Shown here: positions 26 to 17,482 of the stretch, in pieces
Layout of the letters: every line of letters begins with the position of its first letter
How positions within the stretch are numbered: position 1 is the first letter of the stretch
Made by a program: the position numbers and the translations under genes
Source: Microvirga ossetica
GTDB lineage: Bacteria > Pseudomonadota > Alphaproteobacteria > Rhizobiales > Beijerinckiaceae
Assembly (NCBI RefSeq): GCF_002741015.1
Contig: NZ_CP016616.1
Location: 3,567,501-3,631,500, forward strand
Length of the DNA stretch: 64,000 bases
Direction of reading: 5' to 3'
The notes under the pieces: generated by a model
Database searches by the model: none
Seen by the model: only the letters and a program-made list of their open reading frames with translations
Told to the model about the DNA's origin: nothing

Positions 26-668
26 CGGACCTCCCGCGTTCCCTTGATGAATAGGTCTCCAGGATTTGCATAAAATGACTCATAAATACAATATAAATTG
101 CATTTTAAATATTCAATATGCTGTTTCGCTGTTGCCATAAGCGGTTAAAGCTATTTAAATCAATGTCTTAATGGATTTTAGATCAGTCGGGGTCACTCGC
201 GTTGGCTCGCATCATGGAGACAGCCCAGCGGAGTTCGCTTCAAGGGTGCCAGCGACTTCGTCGAGCCGGACAAGAGATTCGACTGCCTTTTCGGCTTGAT
301 GAGGTGAAGAGCTAGCCGCTCACGGCGATGTGCCGTGCATATATTGCGTTTCATGCGAGCGGTCTGCCGCTTGAGCCCGCGCCAGCGGGACCGGCCTTAC
401 CTGTCCGAAATTGCCAAGCATGCGTCTCAAACTGTCAAGCATAATTGTGTGAACCTGCATAAAGTCCATCGCGCCAGACAGAACGAGCAAACGGTTGAGC
501 GGGGAAGCGATCAGCGCGGATAATATCGATCCGTAGTCTTCTTGCGGTGCGGACCAGGGGGCATGATCCTCGGGACGGGCCTACCGCTGCCGTCGAGCCG
601 ACGTGAGTTCGAGATCGCGAAAGCAGGAGCAGGATGTGCCGCCGGAAGCATCTATCGCGGGAGTGAGA
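26..668. other. Intergenic stretch without a recognisable gene
   Basis: Positions 60-180 are markedly AT-rich for this genome and could hold the promoter of the leftward gene that starts at 25. Short open frames here have no recognisable product or ribosome-binding site. I see no RNA gene. Confidence 0.4.
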
Positions 669-1202
669 ATGGACGGTAACGACCGCCGCAGCGAAAGCGT
701 CAGTTCGTTCGTGGCGTCCCGAATTCTTCTGTCCCGTCCCGGAGCCCTTTGCGGGCTCGCGGCGGCGGCGATCGTTGCGCCGATGCTGGTCGGCTGCACC
801 ACCTCGGGAAGTGGGCCAGCGACCGTCGCCAATGTCGAGGCTCCTGCAGCCTTTGCGCGCGAGCGCTTGGTCGGCCGGTGGGGTGTCGCGTCGTTCCACA
901 CCGACAAGGATCGGCCGCGAACGGAACGCGAGGCGCGGGCTCAGTGCAATCTGCCTTATACGATCGCCAAGGGCCCGACCGACGGGGTGATGATGCATGT
1001 CGCCGACGACCCGAAGCTGTATGAGTTGAGACTCAAGGGCGACAGGGCGGGCCGGACCTATCTCGGCTTCGAGTCGCCGCCGGGCGACCCGCAGGATCGC
1101 GAGATTCTGTCGGCGACGGACAATCTCATGCTCATGCGCTTCGTCGATCCGGACGCGAACCGGCGCTATGGAACCTTCGTATACGTGCGCTGCAGCGCCT
1201 GA
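669..1202 (+). CDS. Small putative lipoprotein of unknown function
   Basis: A 177-aa product. The ATG at 669 has a GGGAG ribosome-binding site five bases upstream, which favours it over an upstream in-frame ATG at 603. Residues about 25-45 form a hydrophobic segment ending in a lipobox (LVGC), so the protein is probably an outer- or inner-membrane lipoprotein. The rest is soluble, with two further cysteines (QCNLPY and the C-terminal VRCSA) that could form a disulfide in the periplasm. I recognise no family. The next gene, an L,D-transpeptidase, starts 31 bases downstream on the same strand, which suggests co-transcription and an envelope role. This is inference. Confidence 0.7.
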   Translation: MDGNDRRSESVSSFVASRILLSRPGALCGLAAAAIVAPMLVGCTTSGSGPATVANVEAPAAFARERLVGRWGVASFHTDKDRPRTEREARAQCNLPYTIAKGPTDGVMMHVADDPKLYELRLKGDRAGRTYLGFESPPGDPQDREILSATDNLMLMRFVDPDANRRYGTFVYVRCSA

Positions 1203-1233
1203 CGATAGAATCCAAAAAGCGGAGGACAGGGAT

Positions 1234-1878
1234 TTGCCAAAACTGCGAAAGAATCCTGATCGACCGGTGCCAGTGCACTGGACTGCGGCGGCTTGGTTTG
1301 CGCTTGCTGCCTGTCTTCCCTTTCAGCAGCTTCATGCACAAGCGAGGCCAGCCGCGCAGGAGACGCTCCAGGTGCTCGACGAACCGGGGCGCATCTCGAC
1401 CGAGGAAGTCGTCATCAACGACGGACCTTACGCTCGCCAGTTCGTGTTCTTCAGGTCCAGCGAGCCGCCCGGCACCCTGGTCATCCACACGTCGGAGCGG
1501 TTTCTCTACATCGTTCAGGGCAACAACCGTGCGCTGCGCTACGGCATCGGTGTCGGGCGTGAAGGCTTTCAATGGTCCGGTTTGGTGAGTGTCAGCCGCA
1601 AGGCCGAGTGGCCCGACTGGCGTCCGCCGCCGGAGATGATATCGCGCCAGCCCTATCTCCCGCGCTTCATGGCAGGCGGTCCCGGAAATCCGATGGGCGC
1701 CCGCGCGCTCTATCTCGGATCGACGGTCTTCCGCGTCCACGGCACCAACCAGCCGGAGACGATCGGGCATGCCATCTCGTCGGGCTGCTTCCGGCTGGCC
1801 AATGGCGACATCATCGATCTTTACGAGCGGGTTCCGATCGGCACGAAGGTGGTGGTCCGGCACGGCGCCAGTCTCTAA
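1234..1878 (+). CDS. L,D-transpeptidase (YkuD/ErfK family), secreted
   Basis: A 214-aa protein that probably makes 3-3 peptidoglycan cross-links or attaches proteins to peptidoglycan in the periplasm. The catalytic YkuD signature is visible near the C-terminus: HGTNQ, then about 14 residues later SGCFRL with the nucleophilic cysteine. The N-terminus has a hydrophobic signal segment (WTAAAWFALAACLPFQQLHAQA). I chose the TTG at 1234 because GGAGG lies eight bases upstream; the in-frame ATG at 1168 overlaps the preceding gene. The domain ends close to the C-terminus, as in short alphaproteobacterial members. It probably forms a unit with the lipoprotein gene upstream. Confidence 0.9.
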   Translation: MPKLRKNPDRPVPVHWTAAAWFALAACLPFQQLHAQARPAAQETLQVLDEPGRISTEEVVINDGPYARQFVFFRSSEPPGTLVIHTSERFLYIVQGNNRALRYGIGVGREGFQWSGLVSVSRKAEWPDWRPPPEMISRQPYLPRFMAGGPGNPMGARALYLGSTVFRVHGTNQPETIGHAISSGCFRLANGDIIDLYERVPIGTKVVVRHGASL

Positions 1879-1933
1879 CGCGGGCATCCCGGCCTCGGGA
1901 TTGCGACGCTTCACGACATGGGGATTGGAGATC

Positions 1934-2971
1934 ATGTTGAAAGCAGCCAACGCCGATATCCGCTGCGTCTTCGCGGGGTTCGCAGCCCTCCTTTTCAGCG
2001 CTTCCGCATTGCCTGCGGCAGCCGGAACTCTCGAGACCGTGAAGCAGCGCGGCGTCCTGCAATGCGGCGTCAGCGAGGGCCTGTTCGGATTCTCTGAGCG
2101 CAACGCCCAGGGACAATGGTCGGGCTTCGATGTCGATTTCTGCCGCGCCGTCGCGGGCGCGATCCTGGACGATCCGTCGAAGGTCACGTTCGTTCCATTG
2201 TCAGCCGGCGACAGGTTCGAGGCTCTTCGCGCGGGCCGTGTCGACCTGCTGTCCCGGAACTCGACATGGACTTTGGAGCGAGAGGCGGGCCTTGGCCTGG
2301 CCTTCGCCGGGATCACCTATCACGATGGCCAGGGCTTCATGGTCATGCGCGATCTCAATGTCACCTCCGCCCTGGAGCTCAACGACGCGAAGGTGTGCGT
2401 CGAGACAGGCACCACAAGCCAGCTCAATCTGGCGGATTTCTTTCGTGCCAACTCGATGACGTTCGAGGAGCGCGCCTTTCCGACGGCCGGGGAGGCCCTC
2501 AATGCCTTCCAGTCAGGTCAATGCAATGTCCTGACGCGGGATCAATCCGCGCTTTATGCAGAACGCCTGAAACTTCCCCGGCCGAAAGACGCCATCATCC
2601 TCCCGGATGTCATCTCGAAAGAGCCGCTCGGGCCGGTGACGCGCGCGGATGATTTTGCCTGGTTCACCATCGTGAAGTGGGTGAATTTTGCCCTCGTGAA
2701 TGCGGAGGAACTCGGGATCTCATCCCGGAATGCAGCCGAGGCAACGACGTCCGGCAAGCCCGATGTGCGCCGCTTCGCCGGCCTGGAGGGCGGGTTCGGC
2801 AAGATGCTGGGGTTGGATGATGCCTGGGCGCTTCGCGCGGTGCGGGCCACCGGGAATTATGCCGAGATCTACGAGCGAAATCTCGGCGTCGAGTCCCGAC
2901 TCGGCATCCCGCGTGGGCTGAACCAGCTTTGGAGCATGGGAGGCGTGCTCTACGCGCCACCGCTTCGGTAG
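1934..2971 (+). CDS. AapJ-like general L-amino-acid ABC transporter binding protein (orphan)
   Basis: A 345-aa periplasmic binding protein of the SBP_bac_3 family, closest in pattern to AapJ: VKQRGVLQCGVSEGLFGFSE near the N-terminus, an ARAGRVDLLSRNSTWTLERE block, and VISKEPLGPVTR. Residues 1-30 form a signal peptide ending ALPAAAG. GGAG lies three bases before the ATG at 1934. In Rhizobiales aapJ normally heads aapJQMP, but no permease or ATPase follows here: the next gene is over 430 bases away and encodes a GntR regulator. It may serve a transporter encoded elsewhere or act as a sensor. Function in amino-acid binding is a family inference. Confidence 0.88.
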   Translation: MLKAANADIRCVFAGFAALLFSASALPAAAGTLETVKQRGVLQCGVSEGLFGFSERNAQGQWSGFDVDFCRAVAGAILDDPSKVTFVPLSAGDRFEALRAGRVDLLSRNSTWTLEREAGLGLAFAGITYHDGQGFMVMRDLNVTSALELNDAKVCVETGTTSQLNLADFFRANSMTFEERAFPTAGEALNAFQSGQCNVLTRDQSALYAERLKLPRPKDAIILPDVISKEPLGPVTRADDFAWFTIVKWVNFALVNAEELGISSRNAAEATTSGKPDVRRFAGLEGGFGKMLGLDDAWALRAVRATGNYAEIYERNLGVESRLGIPRGLNQLWSMGGVLYAPPLR

Positions 2972-3406
2972 TTGCTGGCGGTATGAACTTTCGGTGCGGC
3001 GAGGAATTGCCTGTTGGGTTCTCGGGGTTTTCCTGGATACCGTGACGAGGTCGAAGCAGCGGAGATCGTCTCCTCGGTGCGTCAGAATCCTGCTTCGCAT
3101 GCCGGACCTCCTGCCGATCCGGAATGAGATTGGTCACTTAGGCATCCGTCACGTGTCCCTACGAGGGGCTGGTCGCCAGGCCAGCCCCTCTATTGTTTAG
3201 CCATGCCTGCCCCAAGCTGGGGTGTTTGGTCCAGGCGTATGGTGGTTCGGGTGGCCTTGGCGCGCCGGCCGCGCCCAGGATGCGCCGTCACGGGGATCCG
3301 ATAGCGACGATGCTGCAAGATGGTTCCCGCTGGCCCCATTTGCGCTAATGTCTCATCGTTTGACATCGACCGGCGCGGCCTCGAGAGGGCGCATGGGGTA
3401 GACGCG
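2972..3406. other. Intergenic region between the AapJ-like gene and the GntR gene
   Basis: It contains a strong hairpin at 3163-3190 (listed separately) and no credible gene. A weak TTGACA at 3359-3364 could belong to the promoter of the regulator gene, but I see no convincing -10 partner. Confidence 0.4.
3163..3198 (+). terminator. Hairpin terminator
   Basis: A perfect 10-bp stem (GAGGGGCTGG 3163-3172 with CCAGCCCCTC 3181-3190) encloses an 8-nt loop and is followed by TATTGTTT. It probably ends the transcript of the AapJ-like gene and isolates the GntR cluster downstream. Confidence 0.65.
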
Positions 3407-4180
3407 ATGGAGATCTCGGGGCAGGAAGCTGAAACCGTTCGGCAGGGCCAGTCCGAGGCCCGTCAGCCACTCTATCTCGCGGTATACGACTCGCTGCGAG
3501 ACGAAATCCAAGTCGGCAAATGGAAGGTCGGTGCCTCGCTGCCGTCGGAGGCCGATCTGTCGGATCGCTTCCGCGTCAGCCGTATCACGACGCGCCACGC
3601 ACTCCGGCTCCTCGAGGCGGACGGCTATATCAGGAAGGCGCAATCCCGGCGTCCGGTCGTCATGGCCGCAGCTCCGGCCCGCAGGGAAGGCTGGTTCATG
3701 GAGTCCATGGCCGACATCGTCGAGATGGTCGGCGACGCGCGCCTCGACATCAGAAGCTGGAGGCAGGAACGCTCCGCCCCGGACGCGAGAGACTTCGGGT
3801 TACCGCTTGCGACGCGACTCCACTGCCTGCGCGGAATCCTTTCCCGCAACGGACGACCCTATGCCCGCTCGATCATCTATTTCCCGCCGCAGATCGGGGC
3901 ACGGCTGTCACGCGGCGCTTTCGACGACGCGGTGGTCTTCCGCGTGCTCCAGCGGTTGCTGGGTATTCACATCGAGGACGTCCAGCTGACCGTATGGTCG
4001 GAACTCGCTTCCGAAGAGGATGCTCGAGATCTTCGGTGCGAGGTGGGCAGTGCCCTCCTGGCGACCCAACTGCAATACAGGGACGAGAACGCTTCCCTCA
4101 TCGAGATCGCCTATAGCCGCGCTCTCGCATCCGAGGCCAAACTTTCCACGCGTCTCGTCACCTCGGCGCGAGTTCCTTGA
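3407..4180 (+). CDS. GntR-family transcriptional regulator with UTRA ligand domain (HutC subfamily)
   Basis: A 257-aa repressor-type regulator, the likely local controller of the cluster that follows. Residues about 20-85 form the winged helix typical of GntR (PLYLAVYDSLRDEI, SLPSEADLSDRFRVSRITTRHAL). Residues about 95-250 match the UTRA/HutC effector domain, which binds a small-molecule inducer. I start at the ATG at 3407, with GGGG upstream; the longer frame from 3320 adds a non-conserved leader. A palindrome overlapping the next promoter (4199-4210) resembles HutC-type operators. Inducer unknown, presumably the substrate or an intermediate of the pathway encoded downstream. Confidence 0.93.
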   Translation: MEISGQEAETVRQGQSEARQPLYLAVYDSLRDEIQVGKWKVGASLPSEADLSDRFRVSRITTRHALRLLEADGYIRKAQSRRPVVMAAAPARREGWFMESMADIVEMVGDARLDIRSWRQERSAPDARDFGLPLATRLHCLRGILSRNGRPYARSIIYFPPQIGARLSRGAFDDAVVFRVLQRLLGIHIEDVQLTVWSELASEEDARDLRCEVGSALLATQLQYRDENASLIEIAYSRALASEAKLSTRLVTSARVP

Positions 4181-4210
4181 CAATTTTGTGGACAAAGGTT
4201 GTTATAACAA
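4177..4210 (+). promoter_or_regulatory. Promoter with an overlapping GntR-type operator
   Basis: TTGACA at 4177-4182 is followed, 18 bases on, by GTTATA at 4201-4206, a fair sigma-70 pair. TTGTTATAACAA (4199-4210) is a perfect 12-bp palindrome covering the -10 region, with the GT...AC edges expected for HutC-subfamily GntR operators. It lies 50 bases before the dehydrogenase start and right after the regulator gene, so repression by that regulator is a reasonable inference. Confidence 0.6.
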
Positions 4211-4259
4211 GTTGAGGCACCAACCCGGCAGAAACGGGGACGCCCCAGAGGAAAACGCC

Positions 4260-5057
4260 ATGCAGGTCGACCTCCAAGGGAAGGTCGCACTGGTGACTGG
4301 CGCAGCGCAAGGGATCGGCCGTTCCATAGCCGATACGCTGGCGCGAAACGGCGCGCGGGTCATCTATACGGACCTCGACATCGATCGTGCGGTCGATGCT
4401 GCACGCACCTCGACTCCATGCGACGAAGGTCATCTCGCCTTTGCAATGGATGTCTCTGACGGACCCTGCATCGACGCGACGGTCGCCGAGGCGGCAGCGG
4501 CGGCGGGCCGGATCGACATTCTCGTCAACAATGCCGGGATCGGGGTGAAGGCGGCGGATCGAAAAACCATCGACGAATTTCCGGTCGACACTTGGGAGGA
4601 GATGCTTCGGATCGACCTGACCGGGGTGTTTCGCGTCAGCCGTGCCGTCATTCCGCACATGAAGTCCCAGCGCACTGGTCGGATCATCAACATCGCATCC
4701 GTCCTCGGCCTTGTGCCGATGCGTCTGCAAAGCTCCTACGTCGCCGCAAAAGCGGGAGTGGTCAACCTGACCCGCTCGATGGCGCTCGAGCTGGCGCCCC
4801 ATGGCATCCTGGTCAACGGGATCGCGCCGGGCTCGACGGCGACCGAGGGCTGGAAGCGCTGGGTCGGCGACGCGAAGAGCGAGGAGCTCGACCTTCATGC
4901 GAGGCTTCTGTCGCATATCCCCCTTGGCAGGCCTGCCTCTACGCAGGAGATCGCGAACGGCGCCCTTTTCCTCGCAGCCCCGGAAAGCTCCTACATCACA
5001 GGACATATCCTTCCCATCGACGGCGGCTGGACCGCCGGCTTCGCGCGGGATTTCTGA
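4260..5057 (+). CDS. Short-chain dehydrogenase/reductase (classical SDR)
   Basis: A 265-aa NAD(P)-dependent oxidoreductase. The cofactor motif TGAAQGIG is near residue 15, NNAG near residue 90, and the catalytic Ser/Tyr/Lys are in the IASV block and YVAAKAG. The aspartate after the second beta strand (YTDLDID) suggests NAD rather than NADP. The C-terminal IDGGWTAGF is standard. It is the first structural gene after the operator and lies 3 bases before the E1 gene, so it is probably translated from the same message. The substrate is not readable from sequence; it probably oxidises a hydroxyl group in the same pathway. Confidence 0.92.
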   Translation: MQVDLQGKVALVTGAAQGIGRSIADTLARNGARVIYTDLDIDRAVDAARTSTPCDEGHLAFAMDVSDGPCIDATVAEAAAAAGRIDILVNNAGIGVKAADRKTIDEFPVDTWEEMLRIDLTGVFRVSRAVIPHMKSQRTGRIINIASVLGLVPMRLQSSYVAAKAGVVNLTRSMALELAPHGILVNGIAPGSTATEGWKRWVGDAKSEELDLHARLLSHIPLGRPASTQEIANGALFLAAPESSYITGHILPIDGGWTAGFARDF

Positions 5058-5060
5058 GCC

Positions 5061-7481
5061 ATGGCGCCATTGCAGCGGGACACCGGCGGCGGAGAACTCA
5101 GCAACCGGTTTCCGCTGCCGGATGGGCTATCCTCCGAAGCAATGGTCGGGCTCTACAGGAGCATGGTTCTCCTGAGGAAATTCGAGCTGGCGGCACAGGT
5201 CGCGTGCCGGACGGGAGAGACGCCGGGCTTCCTCCACCTCTATGTGGGCCAGGAAGCGACTGCCTCCGGAATCTGCGCCCACCTGCAGCCGACCGACTGG
5301 ATCACGTCCACGCATCGCGGTCATGGACACGCGCTGGCAAAGGGCATGGACCCGCGCGTGCTCATGGCGGAACTCTATGGCAAGCACGACGGATGCTGCG
5401 GCGGACGCGGCGGCACCATGCATCTGTACGATCCGGCGATCGGTCTCTTCGGGACGAACGGTCTGGTGGGAGGCGGCATCCCCTCGGCGGTCGGTGCAGC
5501 GATCAGCGCCAAGTATCGAGGCACGCGTGATGTTTCCGTCGCTTTCTTCGGAGACGGAGCGACCAACCATGCCGCCTTCCATGAATCGCTGAACTTCGCC
5601 GGGGTGAGGCGGGCTCCGGTGGTGCTGGTCTGCGAGAACAATCTCTACGCGACGGCAACCGCTCTCTCGTCGGTCACTCTCAATCCCGAGATCGCGAGCC
5701 GGGCGGCGGCCTATGGCATCCCGGGCATCGCCGTCGACGGCAACGACGTGGTGGCGGTCTGGCAGGCAGCTCGCGAAGCGGTGGAGCGCGCCCGCGAGGG
5801 GCACGGACCGACCCTGATCGAGGCGAAGACCTACCGCACCGTCGGCCACCACGAGGGCGATCCCGTAGTCGGCATGTACCGGACGCAGGAGGAAGTGGAC
5901 GAATGGGCCAAGCGGTGCCCGGTCGAGACCTTCAGGCGCCGGATCATGGAGGATTACGCGATCGTCACAGGACGCGAGCTCGATCAGATCGACGAGTCCG
6001 TCGACGCTTCGGTCAAGGCCGCAATCGAATTCGCCCGCCGATCGCCTGAACCGGAGCCAAGCACCTATTCGCTTCACGTCTTCGCGGACCCGATCAATCC
6101 GCCCGAGGCGACGGCACCGACGCCCCGAGGCCGTCCCACGGTCGAAACGGGCTGGCTCGATGCCGTCAGGGAGGGGATCGCCGAGGAGATGCGGCACAAC
6201 CGCAACCTGATCTATTTCGGGGAGGGAACCGGCGAGCGCGGCGGCACCTTCGCGCACACCAAGGGATTGTACCAGGAGTTCGGCAGGGACCGCATGGTCG
6301 ACACGCCGATCTCGGAACTCGGCTTTACCGGCGCGGCGCTCGGCGCGTCCGCCACGGGCACCCGCTGCATCGCGGACCTCATGTTCGCCGACTTCCTGTT
6401 CGAGGCAGCCGGACAGATCGTCCTGCAGGCGGCGAAGCTGCGCTACATGTCGAACGGCCAGATGCAGGCCCCCATGGTCATCCGCGTCGGCGCGGGTGCT
6501 GTGCGCTCGGCTGGCCCCCACCACTCGGGCACCTACCATCCGGTATGGGCGCATGTTCCGGGTCTCGTGGTCTGCCTTCCGTCGACGCCGGCCGACGCCA
6601 AGGGACTGATGAAGACCGCCCTCCGAGCCCGCGATCCGGTCATCATGCTGGAGACGAAGGCGCTGTTCTCGTCGAAGGGGCCTGTGCCGGAAGGCGAGCA
6701 TCTCGTGCCTTTCGGACTCGCACGGATCGCCCGGAAGGGGACCGACCTCACCATCGCGAGCGCCGGACAGCTCGTCATCAGGTCGCTCGAGGCCGCCGAC
6801 ATCCTGGCCGAGGGCGGCATCTCCGCCGAAGTCATCGATCTCCGGACCATTCAGCCGCTCGACGTCGAGACCGTGGCTGACAGCGTCAGGCGCACCCATC
6901 GCCTTCTCGTCGTCGATGAGGCGTATGCCATGTTCGGGGTTGGCGCCGAGCTCGGCCAGTCCATGAACGAACTCTGCTTCGATCACCTGGATGCTCCCGT
7001 CGCCCGTCTTCACACAGCGCCCGTTACCCATCCGTTTGCACCGTCCCTCGAGCGCGCCATGCTGGTGTCCACCGACCGCATCGTCGCCGCCGCGAGACGC
7101 CTTGCGCAGGGCGAGGTCGATCCGATCGACCGTGTGGGCCGGTTCTCCGCAGAGGCCAGACACACGGCACCAGTGTCCGATGACTTATCTGTGCGGCGGC
7201 CCCGTCCCGAGGCCGAGGTGCCTGCGCGGGGCACGGTCGACGGCACCCCGATTACGATGCCCTTCGGCGACCTGACGGTGAGCGAGGGCAAGCTCGTCAA
7301 ATGGTATCGCCGACTTGGAGAAAGCGTGACGCAGGGCGACCACGTGGCAGACATCGAGACAGACAAGGCCGTTGTCGAGATCGAGTCCCCCGCCAGCGGA
7401 ATTCTCGCCGAGATACTTGCAAGGGACGGGGCGACGGTCGCCATGGGATCGCCGATCGGTATCGTTCGGGAGGTGAACTGA
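5061..7481 (+). CDS. Single-chain 2-oxoacid dehydrogenase E1 (alpha+beta) with C-terminal lipoyl domain
   Basis: An 806-aa fusion. Residues about 20-330 are an E1-alpha (AcoA/PdhA type) with the thiamine-diphosphate motif GDGATNHAAFHESLNFA...ENNLYA. Residues about 355-690 are an E1-beta (transketolase core plus C-terminal domain, with the PSTPADAKGL block). The last 80 residues are a lipoyl domain with the lipoylation motif ETDKA around residue 770. E1 proteins usually act as separate alpha and beta chains and borrow the lipoyl domain of E2; here E1 carries its own, while no E2 acyltransferase or E3 is nearby. It should decarboxylate a 2-oxoacid and transfer the acyl group to its own lipoyl arm. 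The next gene overlaps its stop by one base. Confidence 0.92.
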   Translation: MAPLQRDTGGGELSNRFPLPDGLSSEAMVGLYRSMVLLRKFELAAQVACRTGETPGFLHLYVGQEATASGICAHLQPTDWITSTHRGHGHALAKGMDPRVLMAELYGKHDGCCGGRGGTMHLYDPAIGLFGTNGLVGGGIPSAVGAAISAKYRGTRDVSVAFFGDGATNHAAFHESLNFAGVRRAPVVLVCENNLYATATALSSVTLNPEIASRAAAYGIPGIAVDGNDVVAVWQAAREAVERAREGHGPTLIEAKTYRTVGHHEGDPVVGMYRTQEEVDEWAKRCPVETFRRRIMEDYAIVTGRELDQIDESVDASVKAAIEFARRSPEPEPSTYSLHVFADPINPPEATAPTPRGRPTVETGWLDAVREGIAEEMRHNRNLIYFGEGTGERGGTFAHTKGLYQEFGRDRMVDTPISELGFTGAALGASATGTRCIADLMFADFLFEAAGQIVLQAAKLRYMSNGQMQAPMVIRVGAGAVRSAGPHHSGTYHPVWAHVPGLVVCLPSTPADAKGLMKTALRARDPVIMLETKALFSSKGPVPEGEHLVPFGLARIARKGTDLTIASAGQLVIRSLEAADILAEGGISAEVIDLRTIQPLDVETVADSVRRTHRLLVVDEAYAMFGVGAELGQSMNELCFDHLDAPVARLHTAPVTHPFAPSLERAMLVSTDRIVAAARRLAQGEVDPIDRVGRFSAEARHTAPVSDDLSVRRPRPEAEVPARGTVDGTPITMPFGDLTVSEGKLVKWYRRLGESVTQGDHVADIETDKAVVEIESPASGILAEILARDGATVAMGSPIGIVREVN

Positions 7482-8503
7482 TGCGCATCCTGCTGTCCCA
7501 GTTCAGGCATCCCGACGACCGGATCGAGCGGGAGGCGATAGGCAGCGAAGGCGAACTCATCGTTCAATCGGTCAACGATGGCGCGTGGTGTTCGGTACCG
7601 AAGGATGCACGTGCGAGCATCGACGGCATCATCCACTCGCCTCCGGGCACAGACGTAGACGGACCGCCCTCGGAGTATCCGAACGTAAAAGCGCTTGTCC
7701 GCTCCGGGGTCGGGTTCGATGGACTGAACCTTGAGGCCTGGGGCCGCAATGGCACGGCCGTCTTCAACGTCCCGGATTATGCCACCTCGGAGGTCGCCGA
7801 CCATGCGATCGCGCTCATGCTATCACTCACCCGGGGCGTGTTCACCTACAACGATGCCATCAGGGCCGATCCGGCAACCGGATGGACACAGGGCATCGCG
7901 CCCGCCGTCCGCCGCCTGCGGGGCGCGGTCTTCGGGATCGTCGGTCTCGGCCGCATCGGACTGGCCACGGCAATCCGGGCACGCGCCTTCGGCATGCGGA
8001 TCGCCTTCCACGACCCGTATCTGCCATCCGGCATGGAGATCGCCGTCGATACACAGCGATGCGCGAGCCTCCACGAATTGATCGCGATCTCGGACGTGGT
8101 CAGCATCCATGCCCCCTCGAACGAGGAAACACGCGGCCTCATCGGCGCGGGAGCGTTGGCGCATGCCAAGCCCGGTCTTGTCCTGGTCAACACGGCGCGC
8201 GGCTCGCTCGTCGACCTCGACGCGCTTCACGATGCCCTCAGGACGCGGCGGATCATGGCTGCGGGGCTGGACGTCCTGCCGACCGAGCCTGCCGATTCCA
8301 CGCATCCGCTGATCAATGCATGGCGTCGTGGTGAGGACTGGATCAATGGACGGCTGGTTCTCACGCCGCATGCTGCATTCTACTCGCCTTCGTCCGTCAT
8401 CGACATGCGGGTGAAGAGCGTCGAGACCGTCCTCCGACACATCCGGAGCGGCGATCTCTCCAACTGCGTCAACAGGGAGTTTCTGGTGCGCCGCCCGGTG
8501 TGA
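7481..8503 (+). CDS. D-isomer-specific 2-hydroxyacid dehydrogenase (CtBP/phosphoglycerate-dehydrogenase type)
   Basis: A 340-aa NAD-dependent enzyme interconverting a 2-hydroxyacid and its 2-oxoacid. The Rossmann motif GIVGLGRIG is near residue 150. Catalytic elements are visible: VNTARGSLVD with its arginine, a glutamate in the LDVLPTEP block, and the histidine of TPHAAFYS. VPDYATSEVADHAIALML is typical of the CtBP-like branch. The ATG overlaps the E1 stop (TGATG), with GGGAGG 7 bases upstream, so translation is coupled. The product would be a natural substrate for the E1 protein. Substrate identity is unknown. Confidence 0.92.
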   Translation: MRILLSQFRHPDDRIEREAIGSEGELIVQSVNDGAWCSVPKDARASIDGIIHSPPGTDVDGPPSEYPNVKALVRSGVGFDGLNLEAWGRNGTAVFNVPDYATSEVADHAIALMLSLTRGVFTYNDAIRADPATGWTQGIAPAVRRLRGAVFGIVGLGRIGLATAIRARAFGMRIAFHDPYLPSGMEIAVDTQRCASLHELIAISDVVSIHAPSNEETRGLIGAGALAHAKPGLVLVNTARGSLVDLDALHDALRTRRIMAAGLDVLPTEPADSTHPLINAWRRGEDWINGRLVLTPHAAFYSPSSVIDMRVKSVETVLRHIRSGDLSNCVNREFLVRRPV

Positions 8504-8574
8504 TCCAGGGAAAGATCCACAGGCTCCGGCACGATCCCAGGCGTAGAGGCTGGGGCAAGGAGATAGGTGAGCCA

Positions 8575-9240
8575 TTGAACTACACGTTCCAGTTCGGCAC
8601 CGTGATTGACCACTTTCCGGACCTCCTCGCCGGGGCCGCGCTGACGATCCGCCTGTCCGCGCTCACGATGGTCTTCGGGTTGGCCATCGGCATGGCGTGT
8701 GCGGTGGCCAAGGCCTACGGTCCACGGCCGCTCCGGTGGCTGGCGACGTCTTACATCGAGCTCATCCGCAACACGCCGTTCCTGATCCAGCTCTACTTCG
8801 TGTTCTTCGCGCTCCCTCACCTCGGGGTGCGCCTCAGCCCCAACAATTCCGCCTTGCTCGCGATGGTGATCAACCTAGGCGCCTATTCGGCTGAGATCGT
8901 ACGAGCCGGCGTCGAGTCTATCCCGCATGGCCAGATCGAGGCCGGACGGGCGCTCGGGCTGAGGCCGATCCAAATCGTCCGGTTCCTGATCCTCTTCCCG
9001 GCCCTGAAGGCAGTCTATCCGGCGCTGACAAGTCAGTTCATTCTTGTCCTCCTCGGATCGAGCATCGTCTCCGCCATCGCCGCGGACGAGCTCACCGCCG
9101 TCGCCAATACCCTCAATTCGCAGACATTCCGGAGCTTCGAGATCTACACGATCGTGACCCTCATGTACGTGGTGATCGTGTTCGGGTTCAGGGCGATATT
9201 CACATCGATCTATGCCTTTGCCTTCGCGAGGCGCGGATGA
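8575..9240 (+). CDS. Polar-amino-acid-type ABC transporter permease (first)
   Basis: A 221-aa inner-membrane permease of the HisM/GlnP family. About five transmembrane segments are visible, plus the cytoplasmic EAA loop (GQIEAGRALGLRPIQIVRFLILFP) that docks on the ATPase. I prefer the TTG at 8575, preceded by AGGTGA five bases upstream, because the family starts close to NYTFQFGTV. An upstream GTG at 8500 would overlap the dehydrogenase stop and add 25 non-conserved residues. It pairs with the permease that starts 18 bases downstream. Confidence 0.9.
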   Translation: MNYTFQFGTVIDHFPDLLAGAALTIRLSALTMVFGLAIGMACAVAKAYGPRPLRWLATSYIELIRNTPFLIQLYFVFFALPHLGVRLSPNNSALLAMVINLGAYSAEIVRAGVESIPHGQIEAGRALGLRPIQIVRFLILFPALKAVYPALTSQFILVLLGSSIVSAIAADELTAVANTLNSQTFRSFEIYTIVTLMYVVIVFGFRAIFTSIYAFAFARRG

Positions 9241-9258
9241 TTTCGAGAGGCACGGGAA

Positions 9259-9927
9259 TTGCTGAGAACGTTCACTCTCAACGAAGTTTGGATTCTCGTC
9301 CTGGCCGCCCGATGGACGATCGCCCTGTCGCTCGCGGCATTCGCCGGTGGGGGGACGGTCGGGTTCGTCCTCGCCATCGCGAGGATCTCGCCCTTCAGGG
9401 CGCTGAGATACATTGCATCCGGCTACATCCAGTTCGTGCAGGCCATACCGGGCCTCATGCTCCTGCTCCTGTTCTACTACGGCCTGAACCTGTTCGGCAT
9501 CCGGATCGACGCGTGGACCGCGGCGGTGCTGGCGTTCACCTTATCGACAAGCGCCTTCTTGGCCGAGATCTGGCGCGGTTGCCTCCAGGCCGTTCCCGCA
9601 GGGCAATGGGATGCGGCCCGATCGCTCGGGCTGACCTTTCCGAAGGCGCTGATCCTGGTGATCATCCCGCAGGCGGTTCGGATGGCCTTGCCGCCAACGG
9701 TCGGGTACATGGTGCAGGTCGTGAAGGGAACCTCCCTGGCGGCCCTGATCGGATTCACGGAACTCGCGAAGGCCGGTGCTCAGATCAACACCGTCACCTT
9801 CGAGCCCGTTCTGGTCTTCGGGACGGTAGCGGGCATCTATTTCCTGATCTGCTGGCCCCTGTCGCTGCTCAGCGGTTATCTGGAAAGGCAGTTGAAGGTC
9901 GGTCACGTGAACATCCAGGCCATGTGA
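9259..9927 (+). CDS. Polar-amino-acid-type ABC transporter permease (second)
   Basis: A 222-aa inner-membrane permease of the same family as its upstream neighbour, with the EAA loop at GQWDAARSLGLTFPKALILVIIPQA and about five transmembrane segments. It starts at a TTG with GAGAGG eight bases upstream. The two permeases should form a heterodimer. No ATP-binding subunit gene lies in this cluster, so the complex must borrow one. Confidence 0.9.
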   Translation: MLRTFTLNEVWILVLAARWTIALSLAAFAGGGTVGFVLAIARISPFRALRYIASGYIQFVQAIPGLMLLLLFYYGLNLFGIRIDAWTAAVLAFTLSTSAFLAEIWRGCLQAVPAGQWDAARSLGLTFPKALILVIIPQAVRMALPPTVGYMVQVVKGTSLAALIGFTELAKAGAQINTVTFEPVLVFGTVAGIYFLICWPLSLLSGYLERQLKVGHVNIQAM

Positions 9928-10014
9928 TCCGAAGAGGTACGGCGTGCTGGCCGGAGAAGCCCGCGCGCGACGTATGACCGCCACGAGGGCGGGCTGAAAA
10001 GGAGGGAGGAGACC

Positions 10015-10818
10015 ATGGGTATGCGAGGAATCATGAAATCCGTGCTCGCGCTGACGGCGATGGCCATCGTCGGCCTGTCGGCAGAGACTGCCAGGGCCCA
10101 GACCGTCGACGAGATCATCAAGCGCGGCAAGGTCGTCATTGCCATAGACACGACGGTGCCGCCCTATGGCATGCTCGACGCCAACAATCAGCCGACCGGT
10201 ATCGACGTCGAGGTGGCGAACCTCATCGGCAAGAACCTCAAGGTTCCGGTCGAGCTCGTCACGGTGAACTCGCCCGGGCGTATTCCCGCCCTGCTCAGCA
10301 ACCGTGTCGACATGGTGGTCGCGATCTTCTCGATCACGGCGGAGAGAGCACTCCAAGTGTCGTTCTCGATCCCGTATGCGGGCCAGTCCGCTGTCCTCAT
10401 TGCTCCCAAGACGGCTAACATCAAAGGGCCGGATGATCTCAAGAGTCTGAAGGTCGGCGTCACGCGCGGCGCGCTTGAGGACGGTGCCCTCACGCAAATG
10501 AACCCAGCCGGCATGAACCTGCTTCGGTTCGATGACGGCCCATCGGTCTCGCAGGCCATGCTTTCCGGCCAGATCGATGCCATGGGGGGAGGGGATTACG
10601 GCGAAATCTATCTCCGGAAGGGCGCCAAGGGTGAAGAGTACGAGCAGAAGTTCCCCCTGAGGGCGGCCCACTTCGGGATCGGCATCCGCCGCGGAAACCC
10701 CGATCTGCTGCAATGGCTGAACACATTCGTCTATCAGATCAAGAACAGCGGCGATCTGGACGCGATTTCCCGCAAGTTCCGCAATGGCCAGCCCATGATC
10801 CCGCTGCCGGTCTTCTAG
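10015..10818 (+). CDS. Polar-amino-acid-type ABC transporter substrate-binding protein
   Basis: A 267-aa periplasmic receptor (SBP_bac_3). A Sec signal peptide covers residues about 1-28 (cleavage after ARA). Family blocks include DEIIKRGKVVIAIDTTVPPYG, VDMVVAIFSITAERA and DLKSLKVGVTRG. The ribosome-binding site is very strong (AAAGGAGGGAGGAG), as expected for an abundant receptor, and a hairpin directly after the gene probably protects this part of the message. Ligand unknown: the family takes polar amino acids, but the surrounding hydroxyacid enzymes suggest a related hydroxy or amino acid. Confidence 0.92.
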   Translation: MGMRGIMKSVLALTAMAIVGLSAETARAQTVDEIIKRGKVVIAIDTTVPPYGMLDANNQPTGIDVEVANLIGKNLKVPVELVTVNSPGRIPALLSNRVDMVVAIFSITAERALQVSFSIPYAGQSAVLIAPKTANIKGPDDLKSLKVGVTRGALEDGALTQMNPAGMNLLRFDDGPSVSQAMLSGQIDAMGGGDYGEIYLRKGAKGEEYEQKFPLRAAHFGIGIRRGNPDLLQWLNTFVYQIKNSGDLDAISRKFRNGQPMIPLPVF

Positions 10819-10834
10819 GAACTGCAAGCTGGAA

Positions 10835-10858
10835 GGGATGCCGCCGAACCGGCATCCC
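10835..10858 (+). terminator. Intercistronic hairpin after the binding-protein gene
   Basis: A 9-bp perfect stem (GGGATGCCG 10835-10843 with CGGCATCCC 10850-10858) and a 6-nt loop, with no U-run. It sits between the binding protein and the Ldh2-type gene, where such structures usually stabilise upstream mRNA or let only part of transcription through. Confidence 0.6.
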
Positions 10859-10891
10859 TCGTCAACCGCGACACTCTACCGAGGAAGGCCG

Positions 10892-11947
10892 ATGAGCCTC
10901 ACTTCTACGCCCGTGATCGTCCCAGCAGATAGGCTCAGAGAGATCGTCCGGACGATCTTTTCGGCGGCCGGGTCGTCGGAGCGGGAAGCGGGGCTCGTCG
11001 CCGACCACCTTGTTGGGGCCAACCTGCGCGGCCACGATTCCCACGGGGTGAGCATGATCCCCGCCTACGTCGCCAACGCACTCGACGGAAGCCTGGTCCT
11101 GAACCAGGCCTTGTCCGTCGCATTCGACAGCGGTGCGCTCATCATTTGCGACGGCGGCGTGGGTATCGGCCAAGTCATGGCCCACGATGCGATCGAGGCC
11201 GGAATCGAACGGGCCGCGGGCACCGGCGCGTGTATCGTGGGACTGCGGAATTCGCATCACATCGGCCGCATCGGTCACTGGGCCGAGCAGTGCGCAGCGG
11301 CTGGCTTGGTGTCCATCCATTTCGTCAATGTCGTGAGTACCCCGGCGGTCGCGCCGTTCGGCGGCACCAAGGCACGTGTCGGCACCAATCCGTTCGCGGT
11401 CGGCATCCCTCGAACCGATATGCCTCCCGTCGTCGTCGATTTCGCGACCAGCCGCCTGGCGGCCGGGAAAGTTCACGTGGCCTTCAATCAGGGCGTTTCC
11501 ATTCCTGAAGGAGCCTTGCTGGACGCGGACGGCCACCCGACGACCGATCCGTCCGCCCTGTTCTCGGACCCGCCGGGCGCCCTCTTGCCCTTTGGGGAGC
11601 ATAAGGGCTGGGGGCTGTCCGTCGCTTGCGAGCTTCTAGGTGCGGCGCTCATCGGCGGCAAAACCCAGTCAGGCCCGAAGCAGGGCAACGCCATCGTAAA
11701 CTCCATGCTGTCCATCCTCGTCTCGCCAGACCGCCTCGGCACAAGAGCGAATCTCGACGACGAGACGAACGCGTTCGTCTCGTGGGTTCGGTCGGAGGCA
11801 GACCGCGCCTCACAAATCCTAATGCCGGGCGACCCGGAGCGGGAAACCAAGCGGTGGCGCGAGGCTAACGGCATACCAATCGACGCGCGGACCTGGCAGG
11901 AGATCGAGGCAGCGGCTGAATCCGTGGGCGTGCCAAGACTTGCCTGA
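10892..11947 (+). CDS. Ldh2-family (malate/L-lactate/L-sulfolactate type) 2-hydroxyacid dehydrogenase
   Basis: A 351-aa NAD(P)-dependent oxidoreductase of the Ldh_2 family, a fold unrelated to Rossmann lactate dehydrogenases. The substrate/catalytic HDSHGV motif is near residue 50, the cofactor-binding NSHHIGRIG near residue 125, and GTNPFAVGIPR and LLPFGEHKGWGL follow. I start at ATG 10892, after CGAGGAAGG. Family members oxidise L-2-hydroxyacids, or act on sulfolactate or ureidoglycolate. With the D-type dehydrogenase at 7481-8503 it could handle both enantiomers or epimerise through the 2-oxoacid. It is the last gene of the cluster. Confidence 0.92.
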   Translation: MSLTSTPVIVPADRLREIVRTIFSAAGSSEREAGLVADHLVGANLRGHDSHGVSMIPAYVANALDGSLVLNQALSVAFDSGALIICDGGVGIGQVMAHDAIEAGIERAAGTGACIVGLRNSHHIGRIGHWAEQCAAAGLVSIHFVNVVSTPAVAPFGGTKARVGTNPFAVGIPRTDMPPVVVDFATSRLAAGKVHVAFNQGVSIPEGALLDADGHPTTDPSALFSDPPGALLPFGEHKGWGLSVACELLGAALIGGKTQSGPKQGNAIVNSMLSILVSPDRLGTRANLDDETNAFVSWVRSEADRASQILMPGDPERETKRWREANGIPIDARTWQEIEAAAESVGVPRLA

Positions 11948-12180
11948 CCTGTCGAGTTCATCCGCGGTTTCGGATTTCACCGCGCTGCCGGCAATCGAGT
12001 TCGCTCGCCCTTCTCGAACAGGGCGCCCACTGGCCGCACCACGGACCAACGTCCTCTCCTGCTCGTATCATTCCAGGCTCTCCCGTCGACCGCACACGCC
12101 CTGACTCAGGCTGAGCCACCGCTCAGTGGGGTTCGGGCAGCAGGAGGTTCGAGGCCCTGTAGCTGAAGCGCGACGAGGCG

Positions 12181-12600
12181 TCAGATACCGATCCCCTTCA
12201 CCTTGGTGATCATCTCCCAATTGTCTCCGGCCGCGATGATGCATGTCTTGCCGTCTGTCGCGGTCATGACCATCGACCACGAGCCGGACGAGGAGGCAAA
12301 GACCTCAAGGACCTGTCCGGACTGAACCAAGCCGATCCCGACAGGGCTTTCCTTGTATTGGTCGGACAACGCCTCCACGAGTTTGTCTCGAGGGCCACAT
12401 GCCCCTTGAGCATGAGCGGATTCGTGCCCAAACGTGACTAGGCAACCAAGTGTGAGGATCGCTGCAAGCGGCCGGCGGATCGAGGCGTATCGTGGACGAG
12501 CAGAGACCCTGACTGGGATCGGCTGCCGATCGATGAAGAGTGCCTCGAACCAGTTGGCCAGCTTCGGGATGGAGATTAGGGGAATGATCTTCACGCTCAT
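12181..12600 (-). CDS. Hypothetical secreted or membrane-anchored small protein
   Basis: A 139-aa product starting at 12600, with AGGAGG upstream on the minus strand. An unusual 45-residue leader precedes a hydrophobic segment (PLAAILTLGCLVTFGHESAHAQG) that looks like a signal peptide with an AHA-type cleavage site. The mature part has two cysteines (GACGPRD and KTCIIAAGDNWE) likely paired in the periplasm. Similar small secreted proteins are common in this group but have no known function. It is transcribed towards the Ldh2-type gene. Confidence 0.65.
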   Translation of the reverse strand: MSVKIIPLISIPKLANWFEALFIDRQPIPVRVSARPRYASIRRPLAAILTLGCLVTFGHESAHAQGACGPRDKLVEALSDQYKESPVGIGLVQSGQVLEVFASSSGSWSMVMTATDGKTCIIAAGDNWEMITKVKGIGI

Positions 12601-12956
12601 CGAAACCTCCTCTTGCTGACTCCGAGCGTCACACAAGGCCTCGCGGCCTGCTGTGACCTGCGTCACACAATCTCTTTTGGCGATTTCGCGAAGGCACGAA
12701 ACAAGCGCATCATCATTCGTCCGATGTACCCTGCGCCCAACAGGCCAACTGTATGCTCCCCTAGAAGCCTCCCGAGCAAGCGTGTCCGCAGGTCGAACTA
12801 GGGTTCATTGTTCCGCATGCCGTCCGCGAGCTCTGAGGGGTGTCGCAAGAATGACAGAACTTGTGCCATCACAAACTCAGAGACGGCCTCGCCGATATGA
12901 ATTGCAGCATGCGTTACTTGCAAGCGCTCCTCGCTGATGGCCGCGAAACGAACGAG
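12601..12956. other. Intergenic region before the sulfatase remnant
   Basis: No gene is recognisable. The small minus-strand gene at 12600 must have its promoter here. The missing 5' part of the sulfatase gene is not found in any frame. Confidence 0.35.
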
Positions 12957-13460
12957 ATGGCGGACTCGTGGTTCGGCAAGGACCACAACACGCCCTTCTA
13001 TCAGGCGACCCAGGCCGGGCCGGTCGACCAATGGCCGAACGGCATGGGCTTCGAGTACTTTTATGGCTTCGCCGGCGGTGACACCAGCCAGTGGCAGCCG
13101 AACCTCTTCCGCAATACGACAGCCATCTATCCCTTCCAGGGCAGTTCCGGCTGGAACCTGACCACCGCCATGGCCGACGAGGCCATGCAGCACATGAGGG
13201 AACTCAAGGCCGTCACTCCGGACAAGCGCTTTTTCGTCTACTACGTACCCGGCGGCACGCACGCATCAACCGACGCCGGAGTGGATCAAGAAGATCAGCG
13301 ACATGCATTTCTTCGACGAGGGCTGGAACAAGCTGCGCGAGACTATCTTCGCCAACCAGAAGCGGCTGGGCATCATGCCTGCGAATGCCCAATTGACCCC
13401 TTGGTCGAAGGACCTGCCGGAGTGGGATTCGCTCAGTCTCCCGCTCCAAGGGCAAGCGGC
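12957..13460 (+). pseudogene. Arylsulfatase pseudogene (5'-truncated and frameshifted)
   Basis: The first segment reads GKDHNTPFYQATQAGP, then WPNGMGFEYFYGF, then FFVYYVPGGTHA, clearly the middle of an AslA-type sulfatase. At about 13262-13275 the frame is lost; the next frame continues with TPEWIKKISDMHFFDEGWNK and LTPWSKDLPEWDSL, the expected following residues. The N-terminal CxPSR region that carries the formylglycine nucleophile is missing, as is the C-terminus after about 13435. The protein cannot be active. Confidence 0.85.
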
Positions 13461-13880
13461 CGGATCCGGACGATGATGAGGCCTACCCACTCTTCGCCAA
13501 TGATGCCGATCCGTGTCGGCACAAGTTCTCCGCCAAGAATGTGTCAGATCGCAATGAGGTTCAGGACGCACTCGCTCGTATGCACCGGATCGCGGTGCAG
13601 CGGACACAGCAGGTGAGGCCCTCTCAGCCAAGTGGCGTGGCGGAGCGGCCGCCGGCCCAGCTATGGGAGGTTGCTGAGCATCGAGGCGATGAGCTTCGTC
13701 CAGTGTTAACACAGCATAGGGGCGGGCAGGGATCTCCTGCTGTCTAAGCCCAGAAAGTGAAGCCCGTCCCAGCGCGCCAGCCATCTCCAGAGACTTGATC
13801 GCCGCCATGCAGGAGATGTGGTAGGTCCTACCTAGTCGCCCTTGGGCTGACTCTGGCCCTGACCTCAGATCGAGTTTTCC
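13461..13880. other. Degraded region between the sulfatase remnant and the MFS gene
   Basis: One frame reads DDDEAYPLFANDADPCRHKFSAKN across about 13472-13540, which looks like the remains of a coding sequence, but I cannot assign it. Nothing else is recognisable. Confidence 0.3.
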
Positions 13881-15560
13881 ATGCCGACAAAAGACGCTGA
13901 AGGATCGGACAGGCGGGCATCCTCTTTGTCCCCCTTCCGGCATCGCATCTTTCTCGCTGTATGGCTTGCAAGTCTCGCCTCCAACTTCGGGGGGCTGATC
14001 CAGTCGGTGGGGGCGGCTTGGCTGATGACGTCCATCGGCGCATCGGCGAATCTTGTTGCCCTGGTGCAGGCTTCGACGACGCTTCCGATCATGCTGTTCT
14101 CGCTCATGGCCGGCGCCATTGCCGACAACTTCGACCGGCGCATGCTGATGCTCGCCGCGCAGATCTTCCTGCTCGCAGTTTCGGTGGCCCTGACCCTTTG
14201 CGCTTATTTTGGCCTGGTAACACCCTGGCTGCTGCTCACCTTCACCTTCTTGGTTGGCTGCGGCACCGCCTTCAATGGACCCGCCTGGCAGTCGCTGGTG
14301 GGCGAGATGGTGCCCCGCTCCGACCTGCCGGCCGCGATCGCCCTTAACAGCATGGGCTTCAACATCGCGCGCAGCGTTGGCCCGGCGCTCGGCGGTATCA
14401 TCGTCGCAACGATCGGTGCCTTCGCCGCCTTTGCGGTGAACGCGCTCAGTTATCTCGGGCTGATCGTGGTCCTGGCACGCTGGCAGCCTGTTCGGCCGCC
14501 GAGGGCTTTGCCGCCGGAGACGCTTGGCAGTGCCATGGCGGCAGGGATCCGCTATGTTGCCATGTCTCCCAATCTCGGCGTGGTGCTCTTGCGGGGAGCG
14601 GCGTTCGGTCTGGCAGCCATTGCGGTTCAGGCCCTGATGCCACTCATCGCCCGTGACCTGATCCAGGGAGGACCGCTCACCTATGGCCTCCTGCTCGGAG
14701 CCTTCGGCGCCGGTGCGGTCGGTGGGGCTCTTCTCAGCACCCGTCTGAGACAGGCCCTGTCACTCGAGGCCCTCGTCCGCGTTGCCTTCATCAGCTTTGC
14801 CGTCTGCGCGGCTGTTGCGGGGCTGAGCAACCTTGCAGCCCTGAGCATCGCGGCAATGGCTCTGGGCGGGGCCAGCTGGGTGCTGGCGCTCTCCAGCTTC
14901 AATGCCACCGTGCAGCTGTCCTCACCCCGCTGGGTGGTTGGCCGTGCCCTTGCGCTCTACCAGATGGCAACCTTCGGCGGGATGGCCCTCGGCAGTTGGA
15001 TCTGGGGCGTGGTGGCCGACCGGTATGGGACAGCGGATGCTCTGCTGATCGCGGCAGGCATGCTGGTCGGCGGGGCCGCACTCGGCGTGCGCCTTCCTCT
15101 GCCCGAGCTGAAGATGCTGAACCTTGATCCGCTCAATCGGTGGACGGAGCCTAATCTCGCAATCGACGTTCTGCCGAGGAGCGGCCCGATCGTGATCACG
15201 ATCGAGTACGTGATCCGGGAAGCGGATGTGGTGGCGTTCCTCGCTGTGATGGCGGGACGGCGGCGGATCCGGCGTCGGGACGGGGCACGCCATTGGACGC
15301 TATCGCGGGATTTGGAAAACCCCGAAATCTGGATCGAGCGCTATCACAGTCCGACCTGGCTGGACTATGTGCGGCACAATCAGCGCATCACGCAGGCTGA
15401 CGCCGCCGTGGGCGAGCGGCTCAGGGCGCTGCATCGAGGGCCGGACAAGCCGCGCGTTCGCCGCATGATCGAGCGCCAGACCGGCGGGCCGGGTCCGGAC
15501 CCTCGATCTCAAGCCCATGACCTAACCGAGCCGCTCACCGATCCGGCCCGATCGTCCTGA
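13881..15560 (+). CDS. MFS exporter (MFS_3 family) with C-terminal monooxygenase-like domain
   Basis: A 559-aa protein. Residues about 20-410 hold about twelve transmembrane segments of the MFS_3/EntS type (FRHRIFLAVWLASLASNFGG at the start, DNFDRRMLML in the 2-3 loop). Residues about 430-540 form a cytosolic domain (VITIEYVIREADVVAFLAVM, LSRDLENPEIWIERYHSPTWLDYVRHNQR) resembling small ferredoxin-like antibiotic-biosynthesis-monooxygenase folds. That tail is typical of this subgroup. It probably exports a small hydrophobic compound or siderophore; substrate unknown. No strong ribosome-binding site precedes the ATG. Confidence 0.88.
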   Translation: MPTKDAEGSDRRASSLSPFRHRIFLAVWLASLASNFGGLIQSVGAAWLMTSIGASANLVALVQASTTLPIMLFSLMAGAIADNFDRRMLMLAAQIFLLAVSVALTLCAYFGLVTPWLLLTFTFLVGCGTAFNGPAWQSLVGEMVPRSDLPAAIALNSMGFNIARSVGPALGGIIVATIGAFAAFAVNALSYLGLIVVLARWQPVRPPRALPPETLGSAMAAGIRYVAMSPNLGVVLLRGAAFGLAAIAVQALMPLIARDLIQGGPLTYGLLLGAFGAGAVGGALLSTRLRQALSLEALVRVAFISFAVCAAVAGLSNLAALSIAAMALGGASWVLALSSFNATVQLSSPRWVVGRALALYQMATFGGMALGSWIWGVVADRYGTADALLIAAGMLVGGAALGVRLPLPELKMLNLDPLNRWTEPNLAIDVLPRSGPIVITIEYVIREADVVAFLAVMAGRRRIRRRDGARHWTLSRDLENPEIWIERYHSPTWLDYVRHNQRITQADAAVGERLRALHRGPDKPRVRRMIERQTGGPGPDPRSQAHDLTEPLTDPARSS

Positions 15561-15925: not shown

Positions 15926-15961
15926 GGATTTGCTTCGGTTTAGTGGAGAGCGGTTTGGTAG

Positions 15962-17464: not shown

Positions 17465-17482
17465 GCCTGGAGCCGACGCTGA

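Follow-up and report, generated by a model that had tools for sequence, protein, structure and literature searches.

The 64,000-nucleotide stretch of the Microvirga ossetica genome analysed here (the window; contig NZ_CP016616.1, positions 3,567,501 to 3,631,500) contains eight open reading frames, all open, close-packed and on the + strand, which encode in order a GntR/UTRA regulator, a short-chain dehydrogenase/reductase (SDR), a fusion of E1alpha, E1beta and a lipoyl domain in one chain, a CtBP-like D-2-hydroxyacid dehydrogenase (D2HDH), two ABC permeases, a family 3 solute-binding protein and an Ldh2-type 2-hydroxyacid dehydrogenase (Table 1). The reading frames and Pfam matches bear out the gene set, order, single strand and tight spacing given by the original prediction, an earlier note on this DNA. 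Gene starts (those of the SDR, D2HDH, permease 1 and Ldh2 genes among them) were chosen by inspection, and the D2HDH ATG overlaps the stop codon of the E1 fusion by one base, its A being the stop's last base (7481). We saw no ABC ATPase gene within the cassette. We tentatively favour the view that this is a transferable catabolic cassette, controlled by GntR and with an acyloin-cleaving E1, that acts on a sugar acid or a polyhydroxy compound akin to one.

Table 1. Features of the cassette in window coordinates.
Feature	Position	Strand	Evidence
Cassette extent by DNA homology among Microvirga	3287..11947	.	blastn against L019 and L020
GntR/UTRA transcription regulator, 257 aa	3407..4180	+	Pfam GntR and UTRA above cut-off
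Candidate promoter TTGACA-N17-TGTTAT (by eye) overlapping 12-bp palindrome, proposed GntR operator	4177..4210	+	
SDR oxidoreductase, ATG start 4260	4260..5057	+	Pfam adh_short; TGAAQGIG Gly motif and YxxxK
E1alpha-E1beta-lipoyl fusion, 806 aa	5061..7481	+	Pfam E1_dh, Transket_pyr, Transketolase_C and Biotin_lipoyl in single chain
CtBP-like D2HDH, ATG start 7481	7481..8503	+	Pfam 2-Hacid_dh
Polar-amino-acid-type ABC permease 1, TTG start 8575	8575..9240	+	Pfam BPD_transp_1
Polar-amino-acid-type ABC permease 2	9259..9927	+	Pfam BPD_transp_1
Family 3 solute-binding protein	10015..10818	+	Pfam SBP_bac_3
Ldh2-type 2-hydroxyacid dehydrogenase, accessory gene, ATG start 10892	10892..11947	+	Pfam Ldh_2; NCBIfam PRK10098

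A blastn search of window positions 1-30000 against a 22.4 kb Microvirga puerhi locus (L019) identified a single block (3287-10816, 87%) and no other match, and the same search against a 22.4 kb Microvirga sesbaniae locus (L020) again a single block (3313-11947, 85.5%) and no other match; a further locus, L104, repeats the L019 match and is probably the same record. As this block is the sole match in the stretches compared with the two other Microvirga, it behaves as a cassette, and because the homology ends at 11947 in one case and at 10816 in the other, Ldh2 is common to the window and M. sesbaniae and missing from the M. puerhi block. The closest protein found for the fusion was that of Microvirga yunnanensis (91%); the fusion was detected in five of 297 other genomes of the family (limit 1e-250) and five of 384 other genomes of the class (limit 1e-220), limits that may miss fusion forms of ~64% identity. 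For relatives' neighbourhoods we took the best 80 of 327 relatives from a pattern scan of one-per-species genomes (81 loci with the window). Among the 80 other loci there were homologs to GntR in 67 (at least 37%, within 5 kb of E1), to D2HDH in 50 (at least 45%, within 1.5 kb), to the SDR in 25 (at least 55%, within 1.5 kb) and to the binding protein in 14 (at least 55%, anywhere in the locus), with SDR, GntR and D2HDH jointly present in 15; for the 69 loci that extend 1 kb or more upstream and 2.5 kb or more downstream the numbers were GntR 62, D2HDH 46, SDR 20, binding protein 14 and the three jointly 13. Other loci, from alpha- and betaproteobacteria, have these core genes too, in varying order. 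The search for conserved neighbourhoods of the 806-aa fusion that the original prediction had suggested thus finds GntR, D2HDH, SDR and binding protein recurring with it, and this co-conservation, together with the sharp block limits in Microvirga, upholds the idea of a dedicated operon around an E1 bearing its own lipoyl domain.

Regulation of this operon may act through the perfect 12-bp palindrome TTGTTATAACAA (4199-4210) 5' of the SDR gene, which we propose as a candidate GntR operator; its form, GT-TATA-AC, agrees with that of HutC-type GntR operators. Of the promoter hexamers, which were picked out by eye, TTGACA (4177-4182) lies at the end of the GntR gene, followed by TGTTAT (4200-4205); a consensus promoter scan of 3000-12700, which accepts a second hexamer only if its second base is A, returned no promoter. 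The exact palindrome occurs at one place in the 9.6 Mb genome. A wider regulon in this genome was rejected: one-mismatch sites (7 forward and 12 reverse) were no commoner than those of a reversed control (12 and 14), so only the exact palindrome counts. Across the 81 loci (1.49 Mb) a scan allowing up to two mismatches found 19 matches against ~3.5 expected, an expectation scaled from 0.15 per 64 kb in the shuffled window. With zero to two mismatches the palindrome stands directly 5' of a cluster-1 SDR gene in ten of the 80 other loci (L019, L020, L021, L022, L024, L025, L032, L033, L062 and L063; in L033 this SDR sits 4 kb from E1), and it also stands 5' of TRAP binding-protein genes (L024, L061), of a family 3 binding protein (L038) and of an enolase-type gene (L036). 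Other matches fall within the called SDR frame (L065) or inside genes (L072, L074 and L098), and there was none in the 22 loci titled Mesorhizobium, nor in most Rhodospirillales loci.

The fusion contains a thiamine diphosphate (ThDP) motif (GDG..NN), the E1beta Glu in ISELGF and a lipoyl site (ETDKA), all three invariant across the aligned fusions, and in 17 of 17 fusions the E1alpha part has STHRGHGHALAKG and a HHEGD His-loop. All five acetoin-type E1alpha references have HR and GHFEGD; all six references from pyruvate dehydrogenase (PDH) and branched-chain 2-oxoacid dehydrogenase (BKD) have YR where the fusions have HR, and none of the six has the acetoin-type residues (HR, HxEGD). In this small reference set HR plus HxEGD would thus appear to mark the acetoin-type class. 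The acetoin-type references were classed by operon context, those of E. faecium and Paracoccus via a sigma-54 regulator and butanediol dehydrogenase and that of Paraburkholderia via an E2 annotated as acetoin E2, and those of Klebsiella and S. epidermidis via their place in the tree and their E2/E3 neighbours. As the fusions form a clade of their own (100% support) and carry acetoin-type residues, they constitute a separate lineage with such residues. The best NCBIfam match of the lipoyl part was to the acetoin dehydrogenase E2 model (67.6 bits, the next being 55.3), and against the curated NCBIfam PDH E1 models E1alpha scored 343.5 of 393.85 and 249.5 of 411.35 bits and E1beta 385.9 of 454 and 310.9 of 321 bits, all below cut-off. 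Among the best 120 of 7604 matches the source names for the fusion were 2-oxoisovalerate dehydrogenase E1, dehydrogenase and thiamine pyrophosphate-dependent enzyme. Because HR and HxEGD are shared with acetoin-type E1s, acyloin cleavage by the fusion would seem at least as likely as 2-oxoacid decarboxylation. The original prediction had named a decarboxylating E1: that it bears a lipoyl domain stands, and its decarboxylation has become doubtful, given the acetoin-type residues, though the tree, with its low deep bootstraps, does not decide the matter.

In 2-oxoacid and acetoin dehydrogenase complexes it is as a rule E2 that carries the lipoyl arm and makes acyl-CoA. Using a home-made profile, seeded with 12 of the same loci, we found an E2-like neighbour (<1e-35) in 47 of the 81 loci, a feature of the relatives that the window by itself does not reveal. 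These proteins have the E2 catalytic-domain fold and none of the 47 has a lipoyl motif; the catalytic His motif is kept as DH[RQ]xx[DNE]G in six, and DHxxxDG or a close form of it is missing in 41. The proteins without it (L066:13397-14080 and those of 40 further loci) lie 3' of the E1 fusion and nearly all have an E3-binding motif, suggesting that they may be a bacterial counterpart of the E3-binding protein. The 34 loci without a match below 1e-35, the window included, comprise two with partial matches cut by a contig end (L023 and L040), one with a match of 1e-5 on the opposite strand that we took as noise (L080) and five with less than 1.4 kb downstream (L022, L057, L061, L062 and L065). 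In the window the profile matched nothing in positions 1-20000, the cassette reading frames include no E2, and the cassette has no E3 gene, as judged from the gene list only. Elsewhere in the genome there are four ordinary E2 genes; all seven candidates of the catalytic-domain search were scored, as were 150 of 272 first-look candidates of the E3-binding-domain search, so that a further one is possible. It is conceivable, if on balance unlikely, that we are dealing with a ThDP- and lipoyl-dependent oxidising complex without E2 acyltransferase, in which the arm sits on E1 and the former E2 has become an E3-docking scaffold in many relatives and is gone in the window lineage. The arm may then discharge free hydroxyacid, not acyl-CoA, which would explain the adjoining hydroxyacid dehydrogenases of unrelated folds.

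The pairing of these dehydrogenases, which the original prediction had singled out, is not conserved. Both orthologues are present in M. sesbaniae L020 alone among the 80 other loci, and because the Ldh2 orthologue (85%) recurs in just this one locus the pair is local; a conserved pair was rejected. A D2HDH homolog lies within 1.5 kb of E1 in 53 of the 80 loci (50 at 45% or more, three at 30-45%), a remote Ldh2 homolog (30-33%) in four (L059, L076, L096 and L097), and an FAD GlcD-type oxidase adjoins E1 in two (L049, by Pfam, and L061); a 2-hydroxyacid oxidoreductase homolog of any of these kinds is found within 1.5 kb in 58. We count the presence of three unrelated kinds beside E1 in favour of the reading proposed above. 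The four remote-Ldh2 loci lack a D2HDH within 1.5 kb of E1, and three of them have a D2HDH homolog 4-6 kb off, as if one kind of dehydrogenase had replaced the other. The window D2HDH aligns with CtBP1 in the Arg, Glu and His regions of the family; its first 66 residues do not align. The window Ldh2 passed the NCBIfam PRK10098 malate/lactate/ureidoglycolate dehydrogenase model (475 bits, cut-off 336) and its best solved match was E. coli 2g8y, which places it with the YbiC-type hydroxycarboxylate dehydrogenase of E. coli. Both motifs of the window SDR are intact. Separately, 12 short SDR-like proteins of other loci (cluster 19, e.g., L050:415-1005) have all lost the YxxxK Lys and the later NAD-motif glycines, and three (L060, L067 and L075) retain the Tyr; nine are encoded no more than 0.5 kb from the E1 fusion and three at 6-8 kb. 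These are possibly pseudo-SDRs, which would make them a second degenerate enzyme beside the fusion.

Transport modules vary over the 80 loci: 14 have the family 3 ABC kind, 11 have TRAP and 33 have a sugar-type binding protein (type by eye). No LSGG-type ATPase frame was found in the 14 binding-protein-cluster loci (window included), a pattern that sugar-type ATPases escape, and the ligand type is not readable from the binding-protein sequence. One enolase-superfamily type, an enolase-type dehydratase, occurs within 6 kb of E1 in 35 of the 80 loci, and SMP-30-type lactonase, HpcH-type aldolase and split transketolase genes lie near E1 in some relatives; sugar ABC parts, aldose epimerase-like, LacI and transketolase C half proteins were named by eye, without a family scan, and none of the eight representative neighbour proteins scanned passed a named sugar-acid NCBIfam cut-off. 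These neighbours, whose enzymes are absent from the window cassette, hint at a sugar acid or similar polyhydroxy compound as the possible substrate. Some further observations concern the surroundings of these E1 genes. In L048 (3500-8500) and other Mesorhizobium loci a set comprising a LacI-type regulator (by eye), enolase-superfamily, split transketolase and SDR genes adjoins the E1 operon. An Arthrobacter plasmid (L148:758-5689) has a class II aldolase gene followed by an E1alpha/beta fusion, a separate lipoyl protein, an FGGY kinase and a sugar-binding-domain protein; the E1 here too is sugar-linked, and the short stretch examined contains no E2. In the window a family 3 amino-acid-type binding-protein gene (1931-2968) precedes the cassette, with a terminator-like hairpin between them (3163-3190), and transposase/integrase-like reading frames, named by eye, lie nearby on the - strand (15962-18517).

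Our proposal for the pathway starts from gene content, co-conservation, the single operator-like palindrome, the lipoyl site of E1, the residue motifs and the state of E2 in relatives, all of which are observed. The binding protein and permeases would import the substrate, with an ATPase supplied from elsewhere, and the SDR would form an alpha-hydroxyketone by oxidising a hydroxyl. The E1 fusion would cleave this acyloin as acetoin dehydrogenase does, which frees an aldehyde and leaves the (hydroxy)acyl group on the fusion's own lipoyl arm; a housekeeping E2 or hydrolysis would then unload the arm, and dihydrolipoyl dehydrogenase would reoxidise it. D2HDH (plus Ldh2 in two of the three Microvirga) would handle a 2-hydroxyacid made or used in the pathway. 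A number of observations weigh against this proposal. HR alone is not specific, being found also in references from other contexts (Phaeobacter, RhizPTS, Thermus, Halobaculum, Azospirillum, C. difficile, Aminobacter and Arthrobacter), with GHSKSD in RhizPTS, C. difficile and Aminobacter; the Azospirillum reference, beside enoyl-CoA-type genes, carries both HR and GHFEGD, and at the Aminobacter locus one E2 is annotated as acetoin E2, yet the Aminobacter reference is not classed as acetoin-type. Bootstraps at the deep nodes of the E1 tree range from 26 to 63, with the fusion clade separate at 100, and because of these low values the fusion is not placeable with acetoin E1 by descent. As 22 of the 80 loci are titled Mesorhizobium, the co-conservation counts are not independent, and in 22 of the 80 the 1.5 kb on either side of E1 contains no hydroxyacid dehydrogenase gene. 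The window transporter belongs to the amino-acid family, though its usual Asp region reads AMGGGD; there is no dehydratase or lactonase gene in the window cassette or its two Microvirga counterparts, and the hint at a sugar acid is drawn from relatives, which may use another substrate.

A close rival, which we regard as possible, reverses the order, with the hydroxyacid preceding E1: the dehydrogenase(s) would convert a 2-hydroxyacid to a 2-oxoacid, the fusion would decarboxylate it, a housekeeping E2 would transfer the acyl group from the lipoyl arm to CoA, and the arm would be reoxidised by E3. The oxidoreductase homologs within 1.5 kb of E1 in 58 loci, the four ordinary E2 genes elsewhere in the genome and the good scores of E1alpha and E1beta on PDH models, though under cut-off, all suit this order; HR and HHEGD in place of the YR of the PDH/BKD references, the 22 loci without such an oxidoreductase and the missing catalytic His motif in 41 of the 47 local E2-like proteins do not. 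The E1alpha motifs and lipoyl similarity would fit a plain acetoin/2,3-butanediol system with the SDR as butanediol dehydrogenase (202 bits on the meso-2,3-butanediol dehydrogenase model, cut-off 270) and E1 as acetoin dehydrogenase. This is improbable, since the E. faecium and Paracoccus operons have a sigma-54 regulator, an E2 and a separate butanediol dehydrogenase, none of which was seen in the cassette, relatives have sugar-acid-type genes and the fusions form their own fully supported clade. That Ldh2 is an accessory gene and that transport modules differ between lineages could be taken to mean that genes for unrelated substrates are adjacent by chance, a very improbable explanation given the sharply bounded block shared in Microvirga and the recurrence of the core elsewhere in different gene order. 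Least credible of all is a sulfolactate-interconverting pathway like SlcC/ComC, to which the original prediction had likened the two unrelated dehydrogenase folds in one operon: the window Ldh2 reached 212 bits on the NCBIfam L-sulfolactate dehydrogenase model, far under its cut-off of 500, the pair is not conserved, and other sulfolactate genes were looked for through family scans only. Sulfolactate chemistry was rejected on this Ldh2 score.

Among known systems, the acetoin dehydrogenase complex (AcoA/AcoB/AcoC/Lpd) resembles the cassette in its E1alpha HR and HxEGD and in the lipoyl domain, which scores best on its E2 model; the cassette differs in having E1alpha, E1beta and lipoyl domain in one chain, a GntR regulator and no E2 or E3 gene, and in its relatives' sugar-acid-type neighbours. 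PDH and branched-chain E1s share domains, ThDP motif and the E1beta Glu and His with the fusion; they have YR for HR and another His-loop, and lie outside its 100% clade. In Thermus, Streptomyces, Halobaculum and Arthrobacter plasmids E1alpha/beta likewise adjoins a small lipoyl protein, but as separate genes that are 41-45% identical to the fusion; the Thermus lipoyl protein, annotated as hypothetical, lies under the lipoyl end of the fusion match, the Halobaculum set is adjoined by a short (260 aa) E2-annotated gene, and the Streptomyces E1 has YR. The eukaryotic PDH E3-binding protein (protein X) has lost the catalytic His. The degenerate E2 of relatives shares with it an E2 fold and E3-binding domain (structure match 6h60), but protein X works beside an active E2 core (PMC10156792), whereas the bacterial His-less form has no lipoyl motif and its loci showed no intact E2 next to it. 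The two-in-one E1-E2 OdhA of Actinobacteria (PMC10415282) also joins E1 to another component, there an acyltransferase and here a lipoyl domain. Non-phosphorylative pentose route III has an SDR acting on a sugar-acid intermediate but uses a hydrolase, and its main text contains neither the term lipoyl nor the term thiamine (PMC6336799). We found no published description of the fusion or operon in the literature searched, most subscription journals being outside its coverage, which accords with the original prediction, where the combination was not recognised as a described pathway.

A family with the arm on E1, and with E2 intact, degenerate or missing according to lineage, would allow a test of which parts of such complexes are dispensable and of what leaves the arm. 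The cassette probably serves growth on a sugar-acid-like compound, and the family suggests that soil, freshwater and rhizobial bacteria have a catabolic route not yet characterised.

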